A DNA stretch of 64,000 nt, taken from the NCBI GenBank assembly GCA_013042915.1, contig JABDPF010000048.1:1-64000 (forward strand). Reading direction: 5' to 3'. Each line of letters starts with the position of its first letter. The stretch's first letter is position 1. Source of the DNA: Lysobacterales bacterium. GTDB lineage: Bacteria > Pseudomonadota > Gammaproteobacteria > Xanthomonadales > SZUA-36. This document shows, piece by piece, positions 61,184 to 64,000 of the stretch. A program made the position numbers and the translations under genes. The notes below the pieces were generated by a model that worked only from the letters and a program-made list of their open reading frames with translations, was not told where the DNA came from and made no database searches.

Positions 61184-61852
61184 ATGTTCCGGTTCAAACC
61201 TTTATGCCTGCTGTTCATCTGTTTTCTGGCTAACCAGCCCGACCCGCTAATGGCCGAAAGCTGGTTCAATGAGTTGCTGGTAAAACGGGCGCCCGCCTAT
61301 ACCCAGGAGGGCGCCGAGGCGTGCCTTGCCTGCCATGCCGGCGAAAAAATGCGCGCAGTCGGGCGAAGCGCGCACGGCGATCCGGACAATCCATTGACGC
61401 CGTTTGCCCTCCATGAATGCGAATCCTGCCACGGTCGCGGCAGCATCCATATTTCCCGTGCACACGGCGGAAAGGGCTATCCGCCCTTGACCATATTCGG
61501 TTACACGCGGGGCGCGGCTCCTCGTGATGAGCAGGTCGAGGCCTGCCTTGATTGCCACGCCGATGAGTCAAGTGGCATCGATGCTGTCCCCTTCGAGGGC
61601 ACGTTGCACGACAAGTGGATCATCAATTGCTCATCCTGCCACCGGGTGCACGCTGAGAATGACCCGGTGATGACCCGGCGCAACCAGGCGGAGATTTGCT
61701 TCGCCTGTCATTCCAGCAAGAAGGAAGAGCATCCAAAAGTCGGCAAACGGGTTCCCGATTTCGATCGAATGGGCTGCGCCGGCTGTCACCGTGTGCATCG
61801 GTTGCCGAAGCCCGAAAAAAATGTAGTGCAAGGTCAGGACGCCACGCCGTGA
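61184..61852 (+). CDS. Secreted hexaheme c-type cytochrome (DmsE/MtrA-like)
   Basis: 222 residues: signal peptide (LCLLFICFLANQPDPLMA, cleavage near 24), then six CxxCH haem sites at residues 47-51, 79-83, 121-125, 149-153, 172-176 and 198-202. The order and the spacer motifs (HECESCHGRG, CSSCHRVHAENDPV, AEICFACHSSKKEEH) resemble the front six haems of decahaem DmsE/MtrA proteins. Expected in the periplasm. The stop overlaps the nqrA GTG (GTGA), so the cytochrome is the first gene of the nqr operon. Its partner and direction of electron flow are unknown. Confidence 0.9.
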   Translation: MFRFKPLCLLFICFLANQPDPLMAESWFNELLVKRAPAYTQEGAEACLACHAGEKMRAVGRSAHGDPDNPLTPFALHECESCHGRGSIHISRAHGGKGYPPLTIFGYTRGAAPRDEQVEACLDCHADESSGIDAVPFEGTLHDKWIINCSSCHRVHAENDPVMTRRNQAEICFACHSSKKEEHPKVGKRVPDFDRMGCAGCHRVHRLPKPEKNVVQGQDATP

Positions 61853-63210
61853 TCGACACGATCCGAATCAAACAGGGTTTGAACATTCCGGTCGTCGGTT
61901 GTCCCGAGCAAGCGATCCATGATGGCCCTCCGATCCGTCACGTCGCCCTTTGCGGGCCGGATTACCAGGGCTTGCGACCACGAATGATGGTCCAGGAAGG
62001 CGACCGGGTCTCGTGTGGCCAGCCAATGTTCGTACACAAACACCATCCGGGTGTGCCCTATTGCGCGCCCGGTGCCGGGGAGGTCATCGCTATCCACCGT
62101 GGGGCTCGACGGGCGCTTCACTCGGTCGTGCTCCGGCTCGAAGACGAAGAATGTGGAAAACGGTTGTACCAACCGATGACCCACACTCGTATTCGCCGTT
62201 TGGAACGAGTCGAGGCAGCCGGGCGCCTTCGGGAGGCCGGTTTGTGGACCGCGTTTCGAACCCGGCCCTTCAGTGCCGTTCCTGCGGCCAACAGCGTGCC
62301 GCGCGCGATTTTCGTCACCGCCATCGACACCCGGCCTCTGGCGCCGGACCCCTGCGTGGTCACGGCCGGCCAGACCGAAGCGTTTGCAGACGGACTGAGT
62401 GTGCTGATGTCCCTGACGCCCGGATCGGTTTACCTGTGTACCGCGCCCGAGTGGGAATGGTCCGCGCCCGGGGACAGGCGGATCAGGCATGTCCGGTTCG
62501 AAGGGCCGCATCCGGCGGGACTGCCCGGAACGCACATCCATTACCTGGATCCCGTGGGTGCAGGTCGACAGGTCTGGCACGTGGGTTACCAGGACGTCAT
62601 CGCCATCGGACGGCTGTTCAGCGAGGGTGTACTCGACTTCAGCCGGGTCGTGGCCCTGGGCGGCAGTGGAATCCATCAGCCGCGCCTGGTGCGGTCGCGG
62701 CTGGGCGCATCGATTCCCGAACTTGTCGGCCGATACATGCAGGACGAGGACGGCAGCCGCTTCATTTCCGGCTCGGTACTCGGTGGACGAGCGGCACACG
62801 CCGGGCTGGCCTATCTCGGGCGATACCACGAGCAGGTCACGGTGATACCCGAGGGCGGGGATCGCCACCTGTTCGGCTGGACCGGCATTTTCCCGTGGCG
62901 GTACAGCGCGACGCGCACTTTTCTGCGGCGCCTGGGGCAGCGCAGGAAATACAACCTCACGACCGCGCAGAACGGGCGCTACAGCGGGATGATTCCGACC
63001 CGCGCGTTTGAAAAAGTGATGCCCCTGGACATCCTGCCGTCCCCCCTGTTCCGCGCGCTGCTCGTGCAAGACACGGACACGGCGCAGGCGCTGGGCTGCC
63101 TGGAACTGGACGAAGAAGACTTGGCGCTATGCGCTTTCGTATGCCCGGCCAAGATCGATTACGGCCTGGCGTTGCGTACCAACCTGCAACGTCTTGAAAA
63201 GGAAGGCTGA
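61849..63210 (+). CDS. nqrA: Na+-translocating NADH:quinone reductase subunit A
   Basis: 453 residues from GTG 61849. The chain follows NqrA throughout: IRIKQGLNIPVVGCPEQAI at the start, AAGRLREAGLWTAFRTRPFS, AIFVTAIDTRPLAPDP, FEGPHPAGLPGTHIHYLDPV, YQDVIAIGRLF, and LGCLELDEEDLALCAFVCPAK near the end. NqrA is the peripheral quinone-associated subunit facing the cytoplasm. It is coupled to the cytochrome upstream and overlaps nqrB (TGATG). Confidence 0.95.
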   Translation: MIDTIRIKQGLNIPVVGCPEQAIHDGPPIRHVALCGPDYQGLRPRMMVQEGDRVSCGQPMFVHKHHPGVPYCAPGAGEVIAIHRGARRALHSVVLRLEDEECGKRLYQPMTHTRIRRLERVEAAGRLREAGLWTAFRTRPFSAVPAANSVPRAIFVTAIDTRPLAPDPCVVTAGQTEAFADGLSVLMSLTPGSVYLCTAPEWEWSAPGDRRIRHVRFEGPHPAGLPGTHIHYLDPVGAGRQVWHVGYQDVIAIGRLFSEGVLDFSRVVALGGSGIHQPRLVRSRLGASIPELVGRYMQDEDGSRFISGSVLGGRAAHAGLAYLGRYHEQVTVIPEGGDRHLFGWTGIFPWRYSATRTFLRRLGQRRKYNLTTAQNGRYSGMIPTRAFEKVMPLDILPSPLFRALLVQDTDTAQALGCLELDEEDLALCAFVCPAKIDYGLALRTNLQRLEKEG

Positions 63211-64000
63211 TGAACGCCTTCCTGACGTCCCTGAGAACGCTGCTTGATCGTTTCGTATGGTCTTCCCACAACGTGACGCGCGTGGCGCCGCATGTGCGGG
63301 ATGCCAACAACGTGCAACGCATGTGGAACTACTTCGTGATTGCCACGCTTCCGGCATGGCTGATCGGCCTGTGGAGCCTGGGTCACCAGACAAACGTGGC
63401 ACTGTTCGACCTGCACCTCGAGAACCCTACCGGCTGGCGCGCGGCGTTCCTGGCCTGGTCAGGTATCGGCTTCAGCCCCTATGATTTCGGCGCCTGTTTC
63501 GTGCAGGGCCTGCTGTTTTTCCTGCCGGCATTCCTGACCGCCTTGCTGGTCGGCGCCCTCTGGGAGTCCCTGTTCGCCACGATGCGCAAGCGGCCGGTCG
63601 ACGAGGGTTTGCTGGCCACGGCCTGGTTGTTCGCGATGATCCTGCCCGCCACCGTGTCGATGTACCAGGTGGCGCTGGGCATGAGTTTCGGCATGGTGGT
63701 GGGTAAGCTGATCTACGGCGGGTCCGGTCGGTACCTGGTGAACCCGGCCTTGCTGGCATTGACCTTCCTGGTGTTTTCCTATCCGCACATGCTGTTTTCC
63801 GAAGGCGTGTGGGTTCCGGTTGCGAACTACGACCAGCCCACCGTGCTCGAGTTGATCACCGACGAGGGTGGGCTGACGGTGGCGTCCGCGGTTGACTACT
63901 CTTACTGGCACCTGTTTTTCGGAGACCGGCCCGGTTCGATGGGTGCGGTGTCCGCCTTTGGCGCGATCCTGGGCGCGCTGTTCCTTATCTGGACGGGGAT
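63210..64000 (+). CDS. nqrB: Na+-translocating NADH:quinone reductase subunit B, 3' end beyond the window
   Basis: The first 263 codons from ATG 63210; the gene continues past the window. Recognisable NqrB segments: APHVRDANNVQRMWNYFVIA, WLFAMILPATVSMYQVALGM, FGMVVGKLIYGGSGRYLVNP and GDRPGSMGAVSAFGAILGA. NqrB carries riboflavin and a covalent FMN at the Thr of a D-G-x-S-G-A-T motif. The aligned stretch here is ANYDQPT (205-211): Thr211 remains, but the Asp, Ser, Gly and Ala are replaced. Covalent FMN attachment by ApbE therefore looks doubtful. The N-terminus is shorter than in Vibrio NqrB. Confidence 0.93.
   Translation, partial: MNAFLTSLRTLLDRFVWSSHNVTRVAPHVRDANNVQRMWNYFVIATLPAWLIGLWSLGHQTNVALFDLHLENPTGWRAAFLAWSGIGFSPYDFGACFVQGLLFFLPAFLTALLVGALWESLFATMRKRPVDEGLLATAWLFAMILPATVSMYQVALGMSFGMVVGKLIYGGSGRYLVNPALLALTFLVFSYPHMLFSEGVWVPVANYDQPTVLELITDEGGLTVASAVDYSYWHLFFGDRPGSMGAVSAFGAILGALFLIWTG

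Follow-up and report, generated by a model that had tools for sequence, protein, structure and literature searches.

Na+-NQR and the nqr operon of the window

In the known Na+-NQR, electrons pass from NADH to the FAD and 2Fe-2S cluster of NqrF, the 2Fe-2S cluster of NqrD/E, the FMN of NqrC, the FMN of NqrB, riboflavin, and finally ubiquinone (PMC9325719, PMC10643135). The riboflavin of V. cholerae NqrB is held by Thr162, Asn200, Asn203 and Asp346 (PMC9325719). Gly141 has a role in the quinone site (PMC10643135, PMC4014512), and paired N-terminal amphipathic helices of NqrB recruit the quinone and close over it (PMC10643135). Current models disagree on where the ion crosses: either through NqrB, whose FMN triggers Na+ translocation (PMC10643135), or through the NqrD/E pair. 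The cofactors of the RNF and NQR membrane subunits (RnfD/NqrB) are called strictly conserved in a 2025 review (PMC12174285); the NQR described here, whose NqrB lacks the FMN attachment motif ("motif-less"), departs from that.

The window, i.e. the whole 64,000-nucleotide stretch of DNA that was analysed, ends inside nqrB, and the remainder of the locus was taken from the same contig (G000:C52). The operon order is hexahaem cytochrome, nqrA, nqrB, nqrC, nqrD, nqrE, nqrF, and then a CBS-domain gene. On the forward strand, the ORF of the hexahaem c-type cytochrome (61184..61852) encodes six CXXCH motifs and an N-terminal signal-like segment. Its TGA stop (61850-61852) is overlapped by the GTG start of nqrA at 61849 (nqrA, 61849..63210, forward), and the nqrA stop in turn shares one base with the ATG of nqrB (63210..64000 in the window, continuing to 64391, forward). 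The six nqr subunit genes form one operon and are all recognised by family models; NqrA (NF003759, 581.6 bits), NqrC, NqrD, NqrE and NqrF each exceed a curated cut-off in the profile scan. NqrB, a 393-aa single-domain protein, matches NqrB models best, yet remains under their cut-offs (367 vs 414 bits for NF003756; 311 vs 350 bits for TIGR01937), and is therefore a divergent NqrB. In many loci, of canonical and variant NQR alike, the gene after nqrF encodes a protein with two CBS domains (for example at L004 9869-10282).

Flavin and quinone sites

The initial annotation had proposed that NqrB residues 205-211 (63822-63842, forward strand) read ANYDQPT in place of DGYSGAT, and both coordinates and letters are exact. 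The replacement is confirmed by a full-length phmmer alignment to V. cholerae NqrB (9lrr/7xk3 chain B; E 7e-79), which is gapless over residues 115-216, sets VWVPVANYDQPTVL on VWTAADGYSGATAL, and pairs T211 with V. cholerae Thr236. The covalent FMN motif of Na+-NQR NqrB, D-x-x-[ST]-G-A-[ST], is absent from this position, and no intact flavinylation motif was found elsewhere in the window NqrB. An alignment slip or a hidden intact motif is ruled out by the gapless alignment to a solved NqrB and by the orthologues. The motif is missing from 13 clade I and 4 clade Ib NqrBs, in which the acceptor is T, S or M. YD(Q/E)P occupies the motif position in all 13 clade I proteins, the orthologues reading VAGYDQPT, VAGYDQPS, VPGYDQPS, VEGYDEPT or VAGYDQPM, the last with a Met acceptor in a single orthologue (L052/L080). 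The sister group, clade Ib, reads VPGYDLPT, VPGYELPT or VPDNNLAT. Loss of the motif from NqrB is well supported. The change is well above what chance would give: D-x-x-[ST]-x-A-T persists in canonical NqrBs across many families, within the Gammaproteobacteria and outside. Where these deviate slightly (L109 with E in place of D; SGPT or SSPT in L149, L150 and L156; AGAT in several), the acceptor Thr and most of the motif are still there. The L149, L150 and L156 proteins, from another family of the same order, read DGFSSPT or DGFSGPT, with the Ala before the acceptor Thr changed to Pro; they keep all riboflavin ligands and might serve to test the tolerance of ApbE.

The riboflavin site is altered as well, though in the window protein only in part. 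Positions 162/200/203/346 read T-Y-N-D: Thr137 (63618..63620, forward) corresponds to Thr162, where the other 12 clade I proteins have Ile; Tyr175 (63732..63734, forward) replaces Asn200; and Asn178 (63741..63743, forward) corresponds to Asn203, a position taken by Ser in 5 of the 13 clade I proteins. None of the 23 motif-less NqrBs has kept Asn200, which is Tyr in each of the 17 clade I and Ib members, and Thr162 and Asn203 are replaced in many. The full Thr/Ser162-Asn200-Asn203 set is found in 0/23 motif-less vs 82/82 motif-bearing NqrBs (all those collected), a comparison in which the motif-less proteins, being one clade, are phylogenetically non-independent; the set is also complete in 29/29 further canonical NqrBs. 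Judged from these alignments, the FMN and riboflavin sites of NqrB are degenerate together. This agrees with the earlier proposal that NqrB works without covalent FMN, which the clade-wide loss of the motif and of riboflavin ligands likewise predicts.

Changes extend to the quinone site. Clades I and Ib differ throughout at Asn156 and Phe159, two positions that canonical NqrBs mostly conserve. Glu144 of the quinone pocket is largely kept (Glu in 7/13 and Gln in 6/13 clade I members), as is the riboflavin ligand Asp346, and the gate phenylalanines Phe338 and Phe342 are retained. Gly141, aligned with Ala116 of the window protein (63555..63557, forward), is changed in clades I and Ib too, but it is Gly in only 53/84 canonical ones and so is a weak marker of quinone-binding loss when taken alone. 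N-terminal to the conserved H-[VIL]-R, several clade I proteins have no more than 31-34 residues vs at least 44 in canonical NqrBs, a segment too short to hold the full pair of quinone-closing amphipathic helices.

The input half of the complex is intact. NqrC of the window operon has its FMN motif (DGLTGAT), and D-x-x-[STA]-G-A-T is kept in every motif-less locus having nqrC, for example DAIAGAT in L060 and DGIAGAT in L084. The 2Fe-2S cysteines of NqrD/E and NqrF are unchanged in 21/21 motif-less loci examined. The window genome encodes one ApbE, two Rnf clusters with intact RnfD motifs (DAVTGAT, DAISGAT), and complex I; flavinylation and NADH:quinone oxidation therefore need not depend on the nqr variant. 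The second, Rnf-like cluster (L005, G000:C85:18000-25114) is preceded by a ~1300-residue protein that, by eye, resembles a 2-oxoacid:ferredoxin oxidoreductase carrying ferredoxin-like portions.

Distribution and cytochrome neighbourhood

Orthologues at 56-70% identity occur in related genomes and in named records, from MAGs labelled Lysobacterales, Xanthomonadales, Chromatiales, Gammaproteobacteria and Desulfuromonadales, which rules out an oddity local to the window genome. More divergent motif-less NqrBs are those of L060, L084, L054/L055 and L057/L058. In an IQ-TREE phylogeny rooted on two RnfDs, all 23 motif-less NqrBs form one clade inside NQR (support 99/99), and a single branch likewise splits them off in an unrooted 87-row tree. 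Motif loss is therefore most simply one old event, and several independent losses are superfluous; the deep joins are less sure for the long branches (L054, L055, L057, L058, L060, L084). The NqrF and NqrD trees give two changes for the same label and remain compatible with a single origin. dN/dS values of 0.07-0.12 between close pairs indicate purifying selection and, together with the conservation, rule out random decay or a pseudogene. L057 and L058 (G325, G420), the earliest-branching motif-less group, read GYAGSD or GYAGSK, lack the acceptor Thr and have no cytochrome nearby. The L060 genome also carries a canonical NQR (L104).

Against TIGR03508, the DmsE-family (MtrA-like) decahaem profile, the window cytochrome scores 102 bits, below the cut-off, its match spanning positions 1-156 of 258 (~60%); it also matches NrfB-like and paired-CXXCH profiles. 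With six CXXCH motifs vs the ten of MtrA/DmsE decahaem cytochromes it falls outside the decahaem class; by sequence it is related to the N-terminal part of that family. Besides it, the window genome yielded just one paired-CXXCH protein, a 777-residue multihaem protein (L170; G000:C92, about 17125) with CXXCH motifs followed by TPR-looking repeats, which is a possible partner of the hexahaem cytochrome.

In clade I, a hexahaem cytochrome with six CXXCH immediately precedes nqrA at 11 loci, which are all those whose contig extends that far. Other members lie near Mtr genes. In L060 (G274:C242, 375-12485) a single strand carries mtrC-mtrA-mtrB-nqrABCDEF-CBS, encoding an OmcA/MtrC-like decahaem cytochrome, an MtrA-like decahaem cytochrome and an MtrB/PioB porin; this mtrB is split in two overlapping frames, probably because of a frameshift introduced in sequencing or assembly. 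Downstream of nqrF-CBS, L073 has genes for octahaem and decahaem (mtrA) cytochromes and mtrB, and in L084 a convergent mtrB-mtrA pair follows nqr. An octahaem-MtrA-MtrB cluster is located about 6-7 kb from nqr in G005, and MtrA-MtrB about 10 kb from nqr on the same contig in G026. Strong MtrB/PioB matches occur in 7/11 variant genomes vs 0/10 canonical-NQR genomes (two weak fragments). Among loci with enough flank, an ORF with at least five haem motifs lies upstream of nqrB in 10/17 motif-less vs 1/58 canonical loci, a count that ignores kinship; the neighbourhood association is partly shared ancestry. No multihaem cytochrome was found near nqr in clade Ib, L055, L057 or L058, and a universal cytochrome link is therefore rejected. 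The suggestion that motif loss might be related to the associated cytochrome fits the multihaem cytochromes or Mtr conduits of many clade members. RuBisCO large-chain genes are present in 5/8 variant genomes; the window genome has neither RuBisCO nor MtrB.

Electron path and comparison with known systems

Because everything up to NqrC is kept, later ligands are lost and a periplasmic multihaem cytochrome is gained, a new outlet at NqrC is proposed. The electron partner of motif-less NQR probably lies beyond the inner membrane. Electrons from NADH would enter the FAD and 2Fe-2S cluster of NqrF, and the NqrD/E 2Fe-2S cluster would carry them across the membrane to the covalent FMN of NqrC. From there they would pass to a periplasmic multihaem cytochrome, hexahaem here, rather than back to NqrB and quinone; in relatives, MtrA-type decahaem cytochromes and MtrB/MtrC conduits would be the acceptors. 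The return half (NqrB FMN, NqrB riboflavin and ubiquinone) would have been given up, and NqrB, predicted to lack flavin, would be retained as a docking and ion-conducting subunit. The complex might then act as a Na+-coupled NADH:periplasmic-cytochrome oxidoreductase, possibly running in reverse (cytochrome to NAD+, at the expense of the Na+ gradient) in autotrophic relatives. We infer the direct NqrC-cytochrome transfer, the Na+ coupling and the electron direction from the pattern of kept and lost parts. Pumping without FMN-NqrB would need the alternative NqrD/E model.

Thus the main reading is of a distinct NQR lineage that may have abandoned the quinone branch and exchanges electrons between NADH and periplasmic multihaem cytochromes, to which we give slightly better than even odds (about 0.55). 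Its most specific form, in which a flavin-free NqrB belongs to a Na+-coupled NADH:multihaem-cytochrome oxidoreductase that works without quinone and in some members is plugged directly into outer-membrane Mtr conduits, is more tentative and falls a little short of even odds.

The strongest rival, itself unlikely, holds that NqrB still reduces quinone through non-covalent flavin(s), with the cytochrome as an extra outlet. FMN or riboflavin would occupy a reshaped pocket, or NqrC would swing its covalent FMN directly into it, as has been proposed for the two-subunit Nqr/Rnf-like complexes. The purifying selection on NqrB and the retention of Asp346, the gate phenylalanines and most of the fold agree with it, as do the clade Ib and other loci that have no nearby cytochrome; a precedent is an NqrB/RnfD domain that lacks the attachment site and has an apparent site for non-covalent flavin (PMC11334425). 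A loosely bound flavin is possible in the window protein, to judge from Asp346, the largely kept Glu144, Thr162 and Asn203. Against this stand the replacement of Asn200 throughout the clade and of Thr162 and Asn203 in many members, the shortened N-terminus of several clade I proteins, and the changed Asn156 and Phe159 of clades I and Ib.

A reversed flow, in which outside or periplasmic donors feed cytochrome, NqrC and NAD+ at the expense of the Na+ gradient and support CO2 fixation, is a sub-case of the main reading, and its probability, which is low, overlaps with that one. The RuBisCO and MtrB genes of the variant genomes fit such a flow, and in Desulfovibrio Rnf with a multihaem cytochrome was hypothesised as a link between periplasmic cytochrome and NAD(P)H/Fd (PMC4287179), but both genes are missing from the window genome and RuBisCO is no proof of direction.

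The initial annotation was right that the Asp and the S-G-A context are gone but overstated the Asp as an ApbE requirement, since Asp-to-Ala alone had a minor effect in one model protein (mutagenesis reviewed in PMC12052999); flavinylation is unlikely because D, S, G and A are lost together and the Thr drifts to Ser or Met in orthologues. That ApbE nonetheless accepts A-x-Y-D-x-P-[T/S] and places FMN on Thr211 is highly improbable: a Thr or Ser in most orthologues, the tolerated Asp-to-Ala change and the ApbE gene favour it, but the joint replacement of S, G and A, the Pro before the acceptor and the Met of L052/L080 oppose it, and the co-loss of riboflavin ligands would be left unexplained.

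A natural NQR that keeps all input-half cofactors but has lost the NqrB flavin sites would be a ready-made test of the redox step that drives the pump. If the outlet is a periplasmic cytochrome, it would provide a route from NADH to extracellular electron transfer that bypasses the quinone pool, of which no description was found; if the quinone-independent reading is true, it would be an energy-conserving connection at the NADH level to extracellular electron acceptors or donors. In the literature searched, which took in no subscription journals and few preprints, we found no complete NQR described as lacking the NqrB flavin sites, no nqr genes collinear with an mtr cluster, and no paper on T236 mutants or an NQR-Mtr link; an earlier description of a flavin-site-less NQR or an nqr-mtr array is possible.

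Two-subunit Nqr/Rnf-like complexes (PMC11334425) share with the variant an NqrB/RnfD-like membrane domain without flavinylation site, a flavinylated NqrC/RnfG-like partner, and a proposed one-way flow to extracytosolic acceptors. They differ in having two subunits only, with the NAD-binding domain fused to the membrane domain, whereas the variant keeps a full NQR including NqrA, D, E and F and lies outside that group. In Methanosarcina acetivorans and Desulfovibrio, Rnf, which belongs to the same superfamily of redox-driven ion pumps, likewise has a multihaem c-type cytochrome encoded alongside it (PMC12174285, PMC4287179, PMC11434368), but it takes ferredoxin; the variant is an NQR with NADH input whose NqrB flavin ligands are lost. 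With V. cholerae Na+-NQR the variant shares six subunits in identical order, the Fe-S cysteines of NqrF and NqrD/E, the NqrC FMN motif, the gate phenylalanines and, by sequence, the NqrB fold. It differs in the missing NqrB FMN motif, the loss of part or all of Thr162/Asn200/Asn203, the altered quinone pocket and the MtrA/DmsE-type cytochrome in the operon. Known MtrCAB/PioAB conduits join the inner membrane via quinol oxidases such as CymA. The same MtrB/PioB and MtrA-type decahaem components adjoin the variant nqr genes, or are collinear with them, in L060, L073 and L084, and conduit genes lie near them in G005 and G026.
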